From Saccoglossus kowalevskii (Eukaryota; Hemichordata; Enteropneusta; Harrimaniidae), in assembly GCF_000003605.2 (NCBI RefSeq), contig NW_003156237.1, positions 276,486 to 313,391 on the forward strand: a stretch of DNA of 36,906 bases, written 5' to 3'. Made by a program: the position numbers and the translations under genes. Numbering within the stretch: the first letter of the stretch is position 1; each line of letters begins with the position of its first letter. Below, piece after piece: positions 1,348 through 36,574 of the stretch. The notes below the pieces were generated by a model that saw only the letters and a list, made by a program, of their open reading frames with translations, was not told the DNA's origin and made no database searches.

Positions 1348-3218
1348 GTATAATTAATATACAACTTGTAGTTTTTAGTGTCACGTGGTATATTTTTTTC
1401 TGAGTACGCAATGAAATCCGCAATTGTATTACAACTTTTCCGCAGTTAGTTTTATAATAATTTCATCTTTAGTCGTCTAAATGTATATCACACAATTACT
1501 TGACATGTTAATGTTTCATTCGCAATAGCGCGTTAAAAGGGTTAAAGTTAACCAACGAGCATACACATCGGCAAGTTAAACGAATATGAGGTACACCGGG
1601 AACTCATAAGTGGTAAACTTCTCTGGCCACAATAGGCGATCGTTTTATCTATTCAATTGCAGTACAAAACACATTTATAATATCTTATAACGTTGCACAT
1701 CACAATAAAACCCATACAATGGTCAATTTGTTAAACTAACCACATTTGGTCGTTTTCTACAGGTATCCTACACAAAATACTCTCTTAACCAGTGCGAGCC
1801 ATTTTCTATTTGTATCGCAACCGACTTCTTACAAATTGCAAGTCATTATTGATAATCGTTTTGTTTGTCGGAATGTGTTTTTAACATCTCCCTTCTTACC
1901 ATGTGTAGCGAACAGCGCGTTTGTTGCGCTTATGGCCGCCCATTACAGTTTGAAGATGACGTACAATTCACGAGAATACTCATTCTATGAATGGAGACGT
2001 TTTGCTATTGAGCAAATCCACTATATGCTAGGAGATCATGGACAATGTTATGTTGTCGGGTTCGGAGACAACTGCTGCAAACGTCCACATCACAGGGGAA
2101 GGTAAGTTTCCAAGAAATTGTGTGAAGTTTCTGGTGGGTGTTATTGATTGGTTGGTTCAAGTGTGCGGGTAGGTGCGTTACATCAGCCAAGCTCATACAG
2201 AGAGTACTGAAGCGGCGAGAAGGAGTGACACTTACAGTCGCCAACGTGTTGCGCACAGCACTATTTACACGTTATACATTTGTATGGTGTAAGTTTACTG
2301 GGTTATTTTAAAATAGTGGTTTAAACATTCAATATAGCTTTATTACATTTATTTAATTCATTATGTGGTCAATTCTAAACAGTCATTTCCCACCTACCAA
2401 TCAAGATTTGTAGCCAATATCTATTAAATACAAAATTGTGGAAACAAAATATAAAAGTACATAAACATGATGCACAGAAATGCTGGTGGGGAAAATATAG
2501 GGTTCAAAAAGTTTAGCGTCACAGTTGTCGTACAGCGCATGCTCGAAATTCGTGTAAACGACTTTGTACACATATCAAACATGAGACGGTGTAACGACTG
2601 TGGTGGCGCTGTCTTTTTACAAACAACGCTTGCAATTGACGATAAACTAATTTTATTTCTTTGACTTGGCGCATTGCAGCTCTTGTCCAAAATCAGATAC
2701 TTGTGGCATGACCTATCTCAATATGAACGCTGACAATCCAAATAGATTAGATGGTGCATTATGTGGAGGACCTGACATAAATGGAGTGTACACAGACAAT
2801 AGAAGTGATTACTTTCACAACGAGGTGACGTGTGATTACAATGCTGGTTTCCAGAGCTCAATAGCAGGTACGCTGAATTAGTAATATCCACTGTCTCATT
2901 CGTGGATGATTAAAAACAGACAATAATGTTGATAACGTTGATTAGTTTTGAAAATGTTTGAATAATTTAAAGTATTTCAAAGTGCATACTCACTAGCGTT
3001 TTTATACTGCATCGACTGAACACTGCATTTTTTCGGTCAAAACATCGTTTTATTTACAATAATCATATAGTTCCATCAAATTCAGTATGTTATTCCATGA
3101 AATGCATCAGGCCATTATTACCGAATAGTCAATAATCTGAAAATGTCACGTGTATATTTATTTCGTAGCTCTGAAGAGTTTGCAGATGGCTGGATTACTA
3201 GACACACTTCATGACTAA
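1161..3218 (+). CDS. GH9 endoglucanase (cellulase), 3' part of gene, paralogue A
   Basis: This is the C-terminal part of a glycoside hydrolase family 9 enzyme, a family of secreted endo-beta-1,4-glucanases that hydrolyse cellulose-type glucans. Coding exons are 1161-1347, 1909-2101, 2680-2867 and 3169-3218, giving 618 nt, 205 residues and a TAA stop. Visible family landmarks are PGGLRVRD and GDWGSNRYA, the VVGFGDN...RPHHR active-site signature, GALCGGPD, and DNRSDYFHNEVTCDYNAGF with the general-acid Glu. All three introns match the minus-strand paralogue in position and phase (1, 2, 1), and the first three exons have identical lengths (187, 193, 188 nt). Cysteines sit where many GH9 enzymes have Ser or Pro (QCYVV, DNCCKR, SSCP). 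The N-terminal half with the DAGD aspartates is outside the window. I see no frameshift or stop, so the gene looks intact. Confidence 0.88.
1909..2101 (+). CDS. GH9-A exon: NSAFVAL to RPHHR signature
   Basis: The acceptor is ATGTGTAG before CGAACAGC and the donor is GGAAG|GTAAGT, phase 1 in and phase 2 out. It encodes NSAFVALMAAHY, the helix SFYEWRRFAIEQIHYMLGD, and the GH9 signature CYVVGFGDNCCKRPHHR. The conserved Gly and Asn of that signature are kept here, unlike in the minus-strand copy. Confidence 0.9.
2680..2867 (+). CDS. GH9-A exon: catalytic Glu segment
   Basis: The acceptor is GCATTGCAG and the donor is ATAGCAG|GTACGC, phase 2 in and phase 1 out. It completes RPHHRGSSCP, then encodes GALCGGPD and YTDNRSDYFHNEVTCDYNA, which fits the GH9 second signature (aromatic-x-D-x4-aromatic-x3-E-x-T-x3-N-A). 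The Glu of NEV is the expected general acid. Confidence 0.9.
3169..3218 (+). CDS. GH9-A terminal coding exon
   Basis: The 50-nt exon follows TTATTTCGTAG. The split codon gives Ala, then LKSLQMAGLLDTLHD and TAA. I found it by matching the phase-1 donor at 2867 and the 53-nt terminal exon of the paralogue (GLSVLKSEGKLPYLELS). It extends the conserved AGFQSSIA helix by one turn, as in other GH9 C termini. Confidence 0.7.
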
Positions 3219-5411: not shown

Positions 5412-21654
<16,243 letters not shown>

Positions 21655-29834: not shown

Positions 29835-29995
29835 TTATTTAGGTGGCTCTTCTTTAGCTTTTTTAGCTCCAAACCCTTTCCTAGCTCGCATTCCTTTAAA
29901 CTGGGCTTGGATTTTCAGTGCTGCTTTCTCAGTTTCTGGATCATCCAAGTCAATGTCAATTTCTTCTTCTTCTGTTGGTGCTGGTTTTGGTGGTT
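29835..29995 (-). CDS. IQ module exon a (terminal, with stop)
   Basis: The acceptor is TTCAATTGTAG. It encodes EPPKPAPTEEEEIDIDLDDP, ETEKAALKIQAQFKGMRARK, GFGAKKAKEEPPK and TAA (29835-29837). The stop aligns with the CAA codon just before the donor of exon b, and a donor-like TAAG|GTTCAT follows it. Confidence 0.85.
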
Positions 29996-32900
29996 CTACA
30001 ATTGAATGCATTTGATGTGTGAGCAAAAAAGCTGTATGCTGTATGCTGCTGCTGCATTATAAGACAGGTATAGATATATCATGCTGGAACAGAAGGAGTA
30101 AACACACAGCAGCAAGTTTGTAAATATATTACTATTTTCTTGATTTTGTACCAGACGTTGACATATATTAGTTATGTTAGAAATATAGCTCAAACATTAA
30201 ACTACTAATGGTAAAATCAGTGAAATCAATAAAAATATGTTTCTTGAATCACACCAATTTATCAAATATGAGTGGGATACTTTCAATGTAGAAAATAAGA
30301 AAGAGTGAATTAATACCTAGGTTAGAGAAAATAGAAGATTGAGAGATGGTAGGATGGAATAGGGCAGAACAGGATAGAGTAGGATAGGATAGGTGATGGA
30401 ATCGTAACGTAGATATCCCTAAGAGTATTTGAATTATGATAGAAGTAGTCACAATGGCCACTGATTGGATGAATGAATTCAACCTTGTTTTGGAGGTTCT
30501 TCTGTGGCTTTCTTAGCTGCAGCACCTTTCCTAGCTTTGAAACCTTTGAACTGAGCTTGAATTTTCAGAGCTGCCTTTTCCGTCTCAGGATCATCCAAAT
30601 CAATGTCTATTTCCTCTTCCTCTGCGGGTTTGGGTGGCGCTAAAATCAAATTAATTGATTGGGTGAATGTCATAAAATGTAACATTTAAGTGCATCAACT
30701 CAATTCAGGCTTGATCAAAACGTGCTAAAAAGAAGTGCAGAGAATGTGAAGTGCTAGAATAGAAAGATGTATTATGTTAATAAAACATGAAATTTCATAA
30801 TAATAATTTCATATTGTCCTGCGATGGGGCTGTACTTTCAGTTGAAAAGCAGTATATACATAATCCACCAGATGGAGTTCCCAATGAGCCAACAAGTCAT
30901 GAATTGGGCCCCTTTTGAGCAAACACTAAAGACAAGCAGCCTGTCGGCTGAGATAGCTCCGCTGTTAGCATGCACATTTCAATTAAAGAACTGAAGACAT
31001 CATCAGAAAATGAACAATATGTATAGTATCAAAGCTATCGGACTTGCAGTTTTTAACAAGAAGTCGAAAATATCACTTTTTACCAAAAATGACAAAAATA
31101 TTCACCAAAATTAGAGAATTGAAGATATCAACATGAAATGAACAAACCTAAGCAGTCTACCCAAGGTACAGGTACACCAAGTATCAAAGCATTCAGGCTT
31201 GTAGTTTTCAAGAAGAAGTCGAAAAAGTAAAACATTGACACGGACGACGGACAACGGACGACGACGACGGACAATCACTCATATGATAAGCTCCGCTCGA
31301 CAAAGTCGACAGCGGAGCTAAAAAAGGGGTCTACAGTTTTCGCAAAATACTTTAAAGGGGTGTCTGTTTAAATAATGGTATTGCTTGAAGGAATGGTGAC
31401 ACAACCATATCATTTTCCCAGGATATTGCCCCCTCCACAAATGAAAATGCTACGATACTAAATATTGACACTTTCCTCACCAAAATGTGTGGGGATCTTT
31501 TGTTTTTACTAGGGTATAGCTATTTATTATTCACAGTACGGTGTATGACATTTAATTTCCGAAAGACAGTGAAACATTCAAATAGATGTAGCAGTACGTA
31601 CTAACTATATACTCGTATAGTGCTTGGGTGCTTTTGAAATCAGAAAAAAACTGCACATGCTGAAGAAGAGATGTGAAGTGATTTACAGAGCGACTGAGCT
31701 TAAATTGCATCTTAAGTAATCAACAAACATGCATATCTGAAACAAGTGTATAGCAAGCTTTTTTAAACCAATTGTCGAAGCTCTAAATTGTCATAATGAA
31801 TTTACACCTTTTTCAACAATGGGTTTAAATTATATGACCAGAATCTAAAAATATGATGACATGAATCAAAATATACCAGTGAAATGTGAGGACATATGTA
31901 AAGAGTCAGCTTTCGTATAGTAAATACAACCAAGACATCCACAAAACAAGACTATCAAGCCTATTTGTATTAGAATAAGTGCAACTTATTCTTCATTTTA
32001 GAGAAATCCTAGATTATTGTTTTTAGCTGACAATCTTCATTAATTCCAAAGCATAAATATATGTTTCAAGGATGTATATATTTGTCACAGACCACTATAA
32101 ACATAAATAACTCAACCTTCTTGAGGTTTTTCCTCCTTAACTGTATCAGCATTTTTAGTTACAAAACCTTTCCTAGCTCTCATTCCTTTAAACTGGGCTT
32201 GAATTTTAAGTGCTGCCTTTTCTGTCTCTGGATCATCAAGATCAATGTCAATTTCTTCTGCTTCTGTTTGCTTTGATGAGTCTGCAGAATGTGTAATGGT
32301 AAATAACGACAGGATAGGTGTTTACAAGCAATCAGCACTGGTAAAAGAATCGTGTACAGCACCACCATGAACAAATAGTAATAATTCATCTCCAGCCAAG
32401 TGCAGTTTATTGCCGCATTGCTGTCACAGCTCATAGCTAAAGCAATAATACTGGTAGCTTTCATATGTTTTCGTAAGTTAATCAAAACCCATGCATAATA
32501 TTGTTATCCATGAATTTTAGGTTTACTAATCGCCAGCTAAGGAAAAGGGAATATGGGTTTCATGCATTATTGGCAAGACCAGAGTCTGGGAAAGGAGCAA
32601 GAATGAGAAGCATGTCAGAAAATTTCCAAAAGAATTTCTCAAACAAAACCAAAAGCCTGTCCATAGATGTTTTTATAGCTACAAATTCTATCCCTGATAG
32701 TGTGTATCTCATTCTTGCACTGGGAGAAAATAAATAATTCAACTATAATTAAATATTAATGACAGTCATCTGAAATAAAATAAGAGTATTAGATAGAATG
32801 AACACTCGATCTGTTAGTTTAACTCCGCATCAGCATATAATAAAATTATGGACCTGGTTCTGGCTTGGGTTCTTCTTTTTGTTTTTCATCTTTCTTGGCT

Positions 32901-35900
32901 GCAAGATTTTTCCTTGCTTTCAAACCCTTGAAACTAGCTTGTATCTTAAGAGCTGCCTTTTCAGTTTCCGGGTCATCCAAATCTATATCTATCTCTTCCT
33001 CCTCAGGAGAAGATTTTGGTGGTTCAGGTTTAGGGGTTTCAGGCTTTTCAGGTGCTATACAATGGGACGGAAAGTTTAAACGAAAAATGTCATACAAGTT
33101 TTTTTTTATTTTGTTTATCAAATACTAGCAGTGAATGCCATAGAAATACGTTATCACATAGTTTGCCCAAGTGATTTAAGTATGCAACAGTTGTATATTC
33201 TATTGAAGATTTAACAGATACAAGTTGTTCTCCAAGCTTACTGTAAGACAATTAAAAAGTCATATTTTTACTTATTCTAGTCACTCTTCTGGTTATTATA
33301 ATACTTGTTTTTGGTAATCATTAACTGTGTTTACATGATATTATGTTCAGCAGGGTTATATTAATATTACAAGTCATAGTCATATTAAGGTCAATATAAT
33401 ATAATTCAATAATCCTGAAATGAAGAATTATAGAACAGAAAATACAAGGAGAAGATGTTACACATCAGCCAGTCTGCAACAGTTTTCAATCTTTCCGCCC
33501 AACTGCAGTCAATATCTGCTGAACAGAAACCTGGTGCAATGGTTATCTTTGTTGTTGTTGAATAGTTAAAATCGTGCTACTTCAAAACCAGTGTTAGTGT
33601 CACACAATAACGTTTTCATATGTTGGTTATAACCGCAACATAACAATGCACCTTTAGCCTTGACTTCTCTTCTTGTTTTCATGCCTTTAAAGCTGGCTTG
33701 GATCTTTACTGCAGCTTTCTCTACATCAGGATCATCAAGATCAATGTCAATTTCCTCATCTTGTGTAGTTTCAACTACTGTATAACAAGAGAGATTTACA
33801 TCATGACATTAATACATCATGCCCGGAAAGATCTTGTGGAATCCAATCAATACATTTACTCTCAAGGATGAATGTCTGTTAGTTGGCAGTTGCTTTGATG
33901 CCAATTCCATATTATTTCTGCCTTTTATTTGGTATACTTGTATTTGGCTGAACAGTATATGTACACAGATCCAACATTATTATTTTGAATGATTGAGCTT
34001 AATTGATGAGCCCTTAAGCAGTATTGAATAACATGTAGTGACGGTAGAAGCATTAATATTACCAGCAAAGCTAGTAAATTAGTAACAGCTTATGATGATG
34101 ATGTAAACCCTCTGATGCCATAGCGTTCAATTGACACATGAAATTAGTGTCAGATTCTTCAGCTGACAGTTCACAGCGACCACTCTGCGCTGAAGTGATG
34201 ATGGTTAATAGCTGCTACTTCAGATGAAACTGGTATCGTCATGATTTTGTTAGTTCCCGACTTTCAAGAATGTTAGCAGAGATGATGAACTTTTAGACTG
34301 CGGATTATAGATAAAGGCGGAAAGAAGCTGTTAATTTTGCTGTTTCTATAATGATGATGATGATGATGGTTGACACCTGCATTGTAGGCATTCGAATTAG
34401 CTTAAGCTAGTGAGTACGAAACAATGATTATTAGATACAGCTTTTAGTTTAATTTTGATAACTAGAAAATAAATCTATTTTAACCTGTAACAGTTTTACT
34501 TTTTTCCTCTTTAATGTGTCTACGTGCTTTCAACCCTTTGAAACCTGCTTGGATCTTAACAGCTGCTGCTTCTACTTCCGGGTCATCCAGATCAATATCA
34601 ATCACTTCTTCTTCTGAAGCTTCAACTGTAATATATACGTTGTAAAATTTGGAAGCTGACATTGAGTCTCTGTTAATCAGTTTTAGATTTGCTGTTGAAG
34701 TTAGAGTTCTGCGGCTTGATCACACACATGCTGATGGATTGATTATGGAGATATCCTGTTACTGTAATTCACAATAGTGCTTTATCCAAGTATTATTTTC
34801 TTCCCATAAATACACATTACTGTTAGATCAGAAAGATGTCTCCAGATTCCTAATACATATAGTTCCACGGCAGGTTGTTAGTAGATTGGTATTTTAGTAT
34901 CTTGTAGTCAGTTCACTCAACTCAACTCAATAACAAGGCAATGCAGTAGTTCATTAGAATACACTCATCACATGATCTAGTGCTTTGTTTATTTCTTTCC
35001 AGAATAAACATGATGGATGTCATTTTCAAGAAGTTAATATTGGGCTACTGTTACTGTACAACTGCAGTAGTGTTAGTTTTGTACATTAGTTATGCTGATC
35101 CTCATGGATTGTTTCTGCTCTAAAAATGCATGGCATCAGGAAATAAAATCTCAATTAGACATGCCATGTCGATAAACAATTCCAGTACGCTGTTATATTC
35201 AAGGTTTCTCATTTTATTTTCTGGGGATACCTTCTCAACAGCAAAGTTGTGACAGTATGTTATCTGCAAGTTCTGACCAGAATATATATGTCATACTTTT
35301 GACATTGTGTCATATATGTAAGTAGTTAGCATGTGTGAACATTCTAGGACTGATAAGGTAAGTGAGGGCGCCCATTACAGCTGACATAAATACAGAGTTA
35401 TGAGCTACATTTTCATAAAACTGGATAATTCGGGCCCCTGGGTGTTAAACCCGCAAGGATGACATTAATACAATACATTAACCAATGCACTTATAGATGG
35501 TTATGTTTACTGATAATGTGACTGGCTCTATACTAGGTATTCAAAATCTATTATTCAGAACCAGGTAATTATGGTAAGATGTATTAATAGGTGTAGGTAT
35601 AGGTTTTTTTAGATTTGAATGAGATTAATGTATATCAAAAGATCCATATATAATACGAATCATATTGATCTGAGTAAGCTGTGTGGTGTACTAGTCAGTT
35701 GTTGTTATTTGATTATTTTGTGAACTGTTTTGTGTTCTTAGATTTTTCTATGCGAGATCTATGATTGGGTATGTTATTTCTACTTCACACTTGCACCCAA
35801 TTTAGACCACATAACTATTGTTATTTTAGTAATTATTCAACATGATTAGCTGTTTATGACTGGAGACTGGAAGCTATTTTAACCTTTAACAACTTTACTT

Positions 35901-36574
35901 TTTTCTTCTTTAATTTGTTTACGTGCTTTCAATCCTTTAAACCCTGCTTGGATCTTGACAGCAGCTGCTTCTACTTCCGGGTCATCCAGGTCAATATCAA
36001 TTTCCTCTTCAACTTCAACTTTTTTTGTGACGACAACTGTTACAGCACCATCAAAAATATAGAACAACAATTCAAGCTCGTGGCCACACTCCAACTTTAA
36101 AACGACCGAGCAACACTATGAAAACTAGTATGTAGTAAAGTGTGCTCTTGTGTCAGAATTGTTCAACAAAATCAGTTCATAATTCAAATCGTTCATAAAA
36201 TAAAGAAAAAGTTTGTATATACATTTCTCTTGCTAATTATTATACTGTGGATTGCAACTTTAAGTTCAACAACAACTGAATATAAAAAATAACTATTTTA
36301 CACAAAAGCAATCCCCCCACATGTAAACATATATAATTCTACTTTCTATGTTGTTTGCTTTCTTTCAACATACCTCACATAACACCTGCAAAGAAAATGG
36401 AGAGATTAAAATGCTAATGTTCACCTTCCGTCTCTTTTTGCTGTCTGTGTTTCTTGGCTTGGAATCCTCTGTAACTGGCTTGAATTTTAATGGCAGCTTT
36501 CTTTGTCTCTGGGTCATCTAAATCAATGTCAATTTCTTCTAAACCAAATTTGATTTTAGTTCTTGGATCAACAG
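29835..36574 (-). CDS. Multi-module PEP-19/neurogranin-like IQ calmodulin-binding protein (3' part)
   Basis: Eight exons in transcript order: 36574-36425, 36036-35884, 34625-34485, 33777-33652, 33054-32854, 32281-32117, 30639-30484, 29995-29835. Each encodes one module: a variable acidic or proline-rich lead, the block EEIDIDLDDPE, then AA-x-KIQA-x-(F/Y)(K/R)G and a basic tail. This is the acidic-plus-IQ layout of vertebrate PCP4/PEP-19 and neurogranin, small proteins that bind apo- and Ca-calmodulin, but repeated at least eight times in one chain. All internal exons are phase 1-1 with lengths divisible by three, so any can be skipped. The visible part is 1253 coding nt (about 417 residues plus stop). 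The start lies off the right edge. The last module ends in TAA. An intracellular calmodulin buffer or scaffold is inferred. Drosophila igloo, with several IQ motifs, is the nearest known parallel I can name. Confidence 0.85.
30346..30392. repeat. Degenerate (AGGAT)n repeat
   Basis: Units such as AGGATGGAAT, AGGATAGAGT and AGGATAGGATAGG, in the intron between IQ exons a and b. Confidence 0.6.
30484..30639 (-). CDS. IQ module exon b
   Basis: The acceptor is TTTGATTTTAG and the donor CAAG|GTTGAA, 52 codons. It encodes APPKPAEEEEIDIDLDDPET, EKAALKIQAQFKGFKARKG and AAAKKATEEPPKQ. It is the nearest relative of the terminal exon. Confidence 0.85.
30954..31320. mobile_element. Non-autonomous repeat with TAGCTCCGCTGT ends
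   Basis: The left end TAGCTCCGCTGT (30954-30965) is the inverse of the right end ACAGCGGAGCTA (31309-31320), giving a 367-bp unit. The 3' end forms a stem (AGCTCCGCTCGAC with GTCGACAGCGGAGCT, 31289-31319). Inside are two diverged tandem units (about 30981-31070 and 31109-31226, each ending AAGTCGAAAA) and a GACGGAC-rich stretch (31241-31272). It is more GC-rich than its surroundings. No coding frame is seen. Confidence 0.7.
32117..32281 (-). CDS. IQ module exon c
   Basis: The acceptor is CATTCTGCAG and the donor GAAG|GTTGAG, 55 codons. It encodes DSSKQTEAEEIDIDLDDPET, EKAALKIQAQFKGMRARKGF and a Lys/Glu tail ending KPQE. It lacks an ATG, so a plain ORF scan misses it. Confidence 0.83.
32854..33054 (-). 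CDS. IQ module exon d
   Basis: The longest module (67 codons). The acceptor is CATTGTATAG and the donor CCAG|GTCCAT. Proline-rich lead APEKPETPKPEPPKSSP, then EEEEIDIDLDDPETEKAALK, IQASFKGLKARKNLAAKK and a Lys/Glu/Pro tail. Confidence 0.85.
33652..33777 (-). CDS. IQ module exon e
   Basis: Too short for a simple ORF search but clear by homology: acceptor TTGTTATACAG, donor AAAG|GTGCAT, 42 codons. It encodes VVETTQDEEIDIDLDDPDVE and KAAVKIQASFKGMKTRREVK. The donor is the weakest of the set. Confidence 0.8.
34350..34369. repeat. (ATG)n microsatellite
   Basis: About six ATG/GAT units in the intron between IQ exons e and f. Confidence 0.7.
34485..34625 (-). CDS. IQ module exon f
   Basis: The acceptor is ATATATTACAG and the donor ACAG|GTTAAA, 47 codons. 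It encodes VEASEEEVIDIDLDDPEVEA, AAVKIQAGFKGLKARRHIKE and EKSKTVT. It is the closest relative of exon g. Confidence 0.85.
35884..36036 (-). CDS. IQ module exon g
   Basis: The acceptor is GCTGTAACAG and the donor AAAG|GTTAAA, 51 codons. The lead is VVVTKKVEVEE, then IDIDLDDPEVEAAAVKIQAG and FKGLKARKQIKEEKSK. It is almost a copy of exon f, including its donor region. Confidence 0.85.
36425..36574 (-). CDS. IQ module exon h (most 5' visible)
   Basis: The acceptor is TTTTCTTGTAG and the donor GAAG|GTGAAC, phase 1-1, 50 codons. The lead is AVDPRTKIKFGL, then EEIDIDLDDPETKKAAIKIQ and ASYRGFQAKKHRQQK. Tyr-Arg replaces the Phe-Lys of other modules, and a Ser sits at the position of the neurogranin PKC serine. 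Confidence 0.82.

Follow-up and report, generated by a model that had tools for sequence, protein, structure and literature searches.

Eight PEP-19-like modules in a row, probably attached to a twitchin-type giant kinase, in Saccoglossus kowalevskii

Drosophila Igloo carries several IQ motifs in one protein, and we know of no kinase or Ig part in it. Igloo is grouped with neurogranin, GAP-43 and PEP-19 as the 'calpacitin' family (PMC9618489). PEP-19 (PCP4) binds apo-calmodulin through an IQ helix and lays an acidic sequence with the plug residues Phe30, Ile32 and Met34 on the C-lobe, and its tuning of Ca2+ is tied to that plug together with Pro37 (PMC5122967). Among the titin-family giants, obscurin has an IQ domain, a presumed calmodulin binder, and some of its isoforms contain kinases (PMC3859903, PMC12812942); this IQ domain is present in mammals and absent from fly and worm obscurin (PMC12812942). 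Here we describe a row of eight PEP-19-like modules in a 36,906-nucleotide (nt) stretch of Saccoglossus kowalevskii DNA (C4558:276486-313391, hereafter the window), which we interpret, with a probability of roughly 0.55, as the C-terminal tail of a twitchin-type giant muscle kinase, holding fast calmodulin and with a module number that is probably adjustable.

The array lies on the minus strand of the window at positions 29835-36574 and consists of eight exons, M1 to M8, each of which encodes a PEP-19-like acidic block and one complete IQ motif. Searching with the motif [EV]IDIDLDDP...KIQA.[FY][KR]G placed the eight modules in eight separate open stretches of that strand, and a profile search of the window and its fetched flanks found no further modules between them or downstream of them in the window. 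Eight consecutive exons of this kind had already been recognized in the original prediction, which was made from the letters of the window, and the stop of M8 and the start of M1 fall exactly on the limits that it gave. Its wording 'at least eight' was also right, since the 5,367 bases directly beyond the window (C4558:313392-318758) read N and more modules or Ig domains may lie hidden there. The exons are listed below, with a slash marking the exon end at each donor.

M1, 36425..36574, minus strand: first module exon seen; phase 1-1; 150 nt; IQ core KIQASYRG; donor AAG/GTGAAC
M2, 35884..36036, minus strand: phase 1-1; 153 nt; IQ core KIQAGFKG; donor AAG/GTTAAA; a second phase-1 GT upstream
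M3, 34485..34625, minus strand: phase 1-1; 141 nt; close relative of M2; donor CAG/GTTAAA; a second phase-1 GT upstream
M4, 33652..33777, minus strand: phase 1-1; 126 nt; IQ core KIQASFKG; donor AAG/GTGCAT; other phase-1 GTs downstream
M5, 32854..33054, minus strand: phase 1-1; 201 nt; Pro/Glu/Lys-rich lead; donor CAG/GTCCAT
M6, 32117..32281, minus strand: phase 1-1; 165 nt; protein core identical to that of M8; donor AAG/GTTGAG
M7, 30484..30639, minus strand: phase 1-1; 156 nt; donor AAG/GTTGAA
M8, 29835..29995, minus strand: last module exon; TAA at 29835-29837; a donor-like AAG/GT overlaps and follows the stop

Phase-1 acceptors (AG) were found at all eight module exons and phase-1 donors (GT) at all seven of M1 to M7, the lengths of which are all divisible by three, and M8 ends in TAA. 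When spliced in silico, the eight modules fall into one open frame, which sets the array apart from the PEP-19/neurogranin type, in which one module sits in a small free protein of 60-80 residues. Separate short genes, one for each exon, are not favoured given that the eight acceptors and seven donors are all of phase 1. The donor used is the sole phase-1 GT listed before an in-frame stop in M1, M5, M6 and M7, and the choice is not forced in M2, M3 and M4, each of which has alternative phase-1 GTs. M8 looks like a former inner cassette, with its donor-like site directly after the TAA where M7 has CAA; the first poly-A-type signal behind it is an ATTAAA 460 nt after the stop. At the other end of the array, behind M1 (window 36365-36424, minus strand), there is an acceptor-like site followed by 12 nt and then GTATGT, a possible 12-nt microexon that would bring in an in-frame TGA.

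The acidic block and the IQ motif stand in the same register as in PEP-19/PCP4 and PCP4L1, and 14-18 of 30 residues in each module are identical to PCP4. When M1 and M2 were joined as a query against the PDB, the top sequence match was Purkinje cell protein 4 (2n77, E 4e-6). Pfam scored IQ in eight stretches of the joined protein (E 1.5e-39), and all four of the single window modules given to it exceeded the IQ cut-off. A complete IQ (IQ...[KR]G...[RK]) is present in 8/8 window modules, as are I, I and L at the PEP-19 plug positions Phe30, Ile32 and Met34 and P at Pro37. PCP4 has K where the G of the IQ motif is expected, whereas the IQ motifs of the array are complete. The array further differs from PCP4 in its eight successive modules, in an additional acidic residue at the position of Ala36, and in its probable attachment to a muscle kinase. 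The residue that follows KIQA is S in M1, M4 and M5, G in M2 and M3, and Q in M6 to M8. The serine stands at the position of the PKC site in neurogranin, and the core of those three modules, KIQAS[FY][KR]G, resembles that of neurogranin; the restriction of the serine to M1, M4 and M5 may allow graded release. In contrast to neurogranin and GAP-43, the acidic block of the array is of the PEP-19 type and five of the eight modules are without the serine.

The 572 megabases (Mb) of genome searched contain 16 exact matches to a degenerate 20-base pattern for EEIDIDL. All are on three contigs, seven of them in the window (M3 begins EEVIDI and so escapes the pattern), and the reversed control gave no matches in the same 572 Mb; the modules are not a chance occurrence. 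By column count, each of the residues I, D, I, D, L, D, D and P is present in 8/8 window modules, which bears out the near invariance of the acidic block that had been claimed from the letters. Over the 28-codon core, 61-100% of amino acids are kept between pairs of window modules, and in 24 of 28 pairs there are more synonymous than non-synonymous codon differences, with two pairs equal and two reversed, these four all involving M1; codon counts were used here because the ratio of non-synonymous to synonymous rates (NG86 dN/dS) was often saturated. M6 and M8 are identical over 28 residues even though nine codons differ, all nine of the differences being synonymous. These patterns support strong constraint on the acidic block. 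The further claim that selection has acted on calmodulin kinetics, and not just on binding, is carried part of the way by the residues at the PEP-19 tuning positions. Across 20 modules of three loci the invariant residues are D, I, D, L (columns 5-8), D 10, P 11, AA 16-17 and KIQ 19-21; this comparison, and the tree built from it, left out a weak copy on contig C2531 (at 53130) and seven copies on contig C3771, copies among which these columns do vary. The tree has a poorly supported base and recovers the groups M6-M8, M2-M3 and C2531 modules 3-6.

On the same strand, 6.8 kilobases (kb) upstream of the array and outside the window, are the kinase, the regulatory tail and the Ig domain of a twitchin-type giant kinase, in the order found in such kinases. 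Five exons encode the kinase, two the regulatory tail and two the Ig domain, and the exons upstream of them encode FN3 and Ig domains. The kinase, tail and Ig stretch aligned end-to-end with C. elegans twitchin (1koa/3uto) over 388 residues (E 7e-102; 167/388 identical, 43%), and a match to Aplysia twitchin covered 314 residues (E 7e-87; 46% identity). The catalytic lysine, the HRD-type aspartate (as YLDLK) and DFG were all identified by eye in the kinase. With a single 67-residue kinase exon as the query, four members of the family, the query itself among them, were recovered at E 1e-10 or better. We considered whether the kinase might be an MLCK and rejected this in that, among the matches listed, twitchin fits the kinase-tail-Ig stretch better than does any MLCK. 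The tail of the kinase resembles the smooth-muscle MLCK peptide, with none of 20000 shuffles reaching its score, and a PDB search with that tail alone gave no matches. An intron of the kinase contains a tandem repeat (..GVLASKQVIFW.., C4558:324288-324916) that keeps three reading frames open.

When the 17 exons from the kinase to the TAA were joined in silico, GT-AG was found at all 16 junctions, with phases agreeing at each, to give one 815-residue open frame in which Pfam recognized Pkinase (8.9e-64), I-set (6e-18) and IQ in eight stretches. The junction of the Ig exon with M1 is inferred across the N stretch and would use an M1 acceptor of fair quality (11/15 pyrimidines) that joins the Ig exon in frame, a fit that has one chance in three of arising by accident.

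A protein search of the genome with the module, at an E-value limit of 10, gave 28 matches on three contigs: eight on C4558, which holds the window, eight on C2531 and 12 on C3771. Twenty-six of these were at E 0.0012 or better and the others at 0.008 and 2.6, and the counts are lower bounds. On C2531, where the weakest match has E 2.6, five modules lie in one 291-codon open stretch and three in other exons. By eye, six of the eight boundaries of four exons at this locus are of phase 0, one is of phase 2 and one is unclear, with none clearly of phase 1, and no kinase or Ig exon was recognized by eye among the minus-strand frames of at least 55 residues in the 28 kb upstream, 7.1 kb of which reads N. 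The C2531 locus looks like a stand-alone igloo-like gene and would be the likely counterpart of igloo; its five modules in one open frame indicate that multi-module chains are probably made at least there. The window array differs from Igloo in its phase-1 exons and in its position behind a twitchin-type kinase. The comparison in the original prediction with single-module proteins only was too narrow, Igloo, with its several IQ motifs, having been placed in the same family.

The third contig, C3771, is titin-like: Ig and FN3 exons are numerous, the initial 70 kb examined contains two kinases, and another kinase exon lies at 22.6 kb. The whole may be one gene or several. A module and an Ig share an open frame at 213 kb, at 189 kb and in four copies read of the six that are spaced 1.9-2.8 kb apart at C3771:394906-407181. 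In one of the Ig-module frames at 394-407 kb both IQ and I-set pass the Pfam cut-offs, and one Ig-module exon at 404-407 kb is, by eye, of phase 1-1 like M1 to M7. At 189 kb a single exon encodes the second half of an MLCK-type calmodulin site, then the module and then the Ig. When its two halves are brought together across a GT-AG intron, the site has matches to smooth-muscle MLCK peptides at E 1.9e-5; the many Ig proteins matched by the Ig that follows include telokin (E 4e-25). PEVK-like acidic stretches, identified by eye, precede modules on C3771. Whatever splice crosses the N stretch of the window gene, PEP-19 modules are fused with titin-family parts inside single open frames. Elsewhere on this contig, a divergent module (EFEVDLEDPE, C3771:136052-136135) ends a very long acidic open frame (1402 codons, 836 of them in the piece read) and is followed by an Ig exon.

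The order of domains in the window gene would thus be Ig/FN3 domains, kinase, regulatory tail, Ig, at least eight PEP-19/neurogranin-type modules and stop. Twitchin and the other titin-family giant kinases are alike in having Ig and FN3 domains, kinase, regulatory tail and Ig; the array gene is unlike them in that PEP-19 modules come after the Ig. Supporting the assignment of the array to the tail of the kinase is that its phase-1 exons match the phase of the Ig-module exon on C3771, unlike the mostly phase-0 exons on C2531, that module and Ig share open frames on C3771, and that the plug and Pro37 residues are kept in kind in every window module. We propose that the complete IQ of each module would hold one calmodulin, also without Ca2+, and that the acidic IDIDLDDP block would accelerate the exchange of Ca2+ at the C-lobe of calmodulin, an effect that PEP-19 has been shown to have. 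The tail may then anchor a series of pre-loaded, fast calmodulins to the sarcomere; these would load quickly as Ca2+ rises and could be handed to the kinase's own tail or to neighbouring targets on the thick filament. Module number may be varied by splicing, and is probably adjustable given that omission of any inner exon leaves the reading frame intact. The twitchin of molluscan catch muscle is a substrate of a Ca2+/calmodulin-dependent phosphatase (PMC12040844), so that in an animal of that kind local calmodulin would matter. A calmodulin sponge or scaffold had been suggested for the array in the original prediction, which missed the twitchin-type kinase-Ig region on the same strand and the modules inside titin-like exons of the same genome.

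Several results weigh against this assignment, or against the tuning role that we propose for the modules, and have to be considered together with the alternatives to which they lend weight. The 5,367 N lie between the Ig exon (319865) and M1, sequence identity with the two solved twitchins reaches only 43% and 46%, and the accessible text on mussel twitchin, which describes 24 Ig and 15 FN3 domains, PEVK-like and kinase parts and Ig domains behind the kinase, does not mention such modules (PMC12040844). On C3771, Pfam finds no IQ at E 0.1 in the module at 189 kb and scores the one at 213 kb below its IQ cut-off (18.2 vs 20.3 bits), these two being recognizable relatives that are perhaps weak binders, and in the four copies read at 394-407 kb K replaces the tuning proline, which by analogy might leave calmodulin binding without faster Ca2+ exchange. 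In addition, there is an ATG in the open frame upstream of the M1 acceptor, and M1 could be a first exon. This ATG, the N stretch that hides the link between the Ig exon and M1, and the stand-alone multi-module gene on C2531 all favour a separate igloo-like gene located behind the twitchin-like gene, with its start in the N stretch or in M1's upstream frame, whose product would be a free calmodulin sponge with several modules. In a variant of the same explanation, transcription would begin at an internal promoter within the kinase gene, the way in which telokin is made from the MLCK gene. We consider a separate gene unlikely, but by no means negligible, since the phase-1 array exons match Ig-type exons and not those on C2531 (the phases of both sets of comparison exons having been read by eye), the fair M1 acceptor joins the Ig exon in frame (one in three by chance) and C3771 shows module and Ig in one open frame.

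The donors of the inner exons are the best evidence against a fixed eight-fold chain. G is present at +5 in 9/9 kinase/tail/Ig donors vs 0/7 of the M1 to M7 donors (Fisher p 9e-5), while on the exon side MAG is present in 7/7 array donors vs 1/9 kinase/tail/Ig donors. Other MAG/GT sites on the same strand of the window have G at +5 in 13/59 cases, the intron side of the array donors being no better than theirs, and an in-frame stop occurs within three codons behind 6/7 array donors vs 5/59 of those sites (P 2.4e-6 if independent), although the module exons are paralogs and the donor and stop counts are therefore not independent. This pattern can mean weak, regulated splicing with a variable module number, and most transcripts could hold fewer than eight modules. 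Accordingly, the earlier view of one gene that chains the modules holds as regards the one frame and the matching splice phases, and the weak donors in 7/7 inner exons leave fewer than eight modules per transcript possible. Taken to its extreme, the array would be made up mostly of alternative or mutually exclusive cassettes, with one or a few modules per transcript and a choice of leads, tails and phosphorylation sites in place of an eight-fold chain. The phase 1-1 exons with lengths in multiples of three, the donors that are weak on the intronic side and perfect in their exonic MAG, the stops behind six of them and the variation of the residue after KIQA can all be counted for cassettes, yet within 400 nt behind the inner exons AATAAA is found at 0/7 and ATTAAA at 1/7, which speaks against alternative last exons, and C2531 has five modules in one open frame. 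On balance we find predominantly cassette-like use improbable. The use of inner exons as alternative last exons, which the stops suggest, is likewise not favoured, poly-A signals close behind these exons being rare. It is also conceivable that the tail is a structural spacer or a light-chain-binding lever and not a calmodulin tuner, with its acidic blocks working through their charge in the manner of PEVK segments: charged residues abound in the joined tail (83 K+R and 102 D+E in 416 residues), its IQ spacing is regular at 47-56 residues, and PEVK-like stretches stand before modules on C3771. However, a spacer needs neither the PEP-19 tuning plug and proline, which are invariant in kind in the array, nor the IQ core, and we regard this explanation as highly improbable.

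The probable attachment of the array to a twitchin-type kinase can be viewed alongside the distribution of the module in the genome. Twenty of the 28 module copies lie on the two giant-kinase contigs, next to Ig domains, and one is directly behind an MLCK-type calmodulin site. We tentatively suggest that the PEP-19 module is a recurrent part of titin-family muscle kinases in this lineage, a built-in, splice-adjustable calmodulin store with accelerated Ca2+ exchange; the lack of a Pfam IQ behind the MLCK-type site and of the tuning proline in the copies read at 394-407 kb led us to lower this suggestion from even odds to slightly less than that. Already known are the module itself, its multi-module relatives (Igloo) and an IQ domain in a titin-family giant, which, in the accessible parts of the obscurin sources cited above (PMC3859903, PMC12812942), is not described as a PEP-19 module or as an array. 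What we regard as new is an array of PEP-19 modules in twitchin- or titin-like genes; among the literature matches listed, no title or abstract opening named PEP-19 modules in MLCK, twitchin or titin.

Other features of the window were noted as follows.

1740-2878, plus strand: pieces similar to the glycosyl hydrolase family 9 exons on the next line, by eye
5769-10800, minus strand: exons of glycosyl hydrolase family 9 (cellulase type), two pieces with Pfam 7.6e-19 and 1.1e-10
11384-14921, minus strand: retroelement remains, with an endonuclease/exonuclease/phosphatase open reading frame of 267 codons (Pfam 9.1e-12) and further open reading frames that look like reverse transcriptase, by eye
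15199-15588, minus strand: one sushi-domain exon (Pfam 6.8e-6)

How scarce calmodulin reaches muscle kinases fast enough is an old question. If our interpretation is true, PEP-19-type modules borne in cis by the kinase would offer a natural answer to it, combining a local stock of calmodulin with faster Ca2+ loading. PEP-19 chemistry, familiar from the neurons of vertebrates, would also be extended to muscle proteins in a different group of animals, and the module would be more mobile than its small vertebrate forms suggest.

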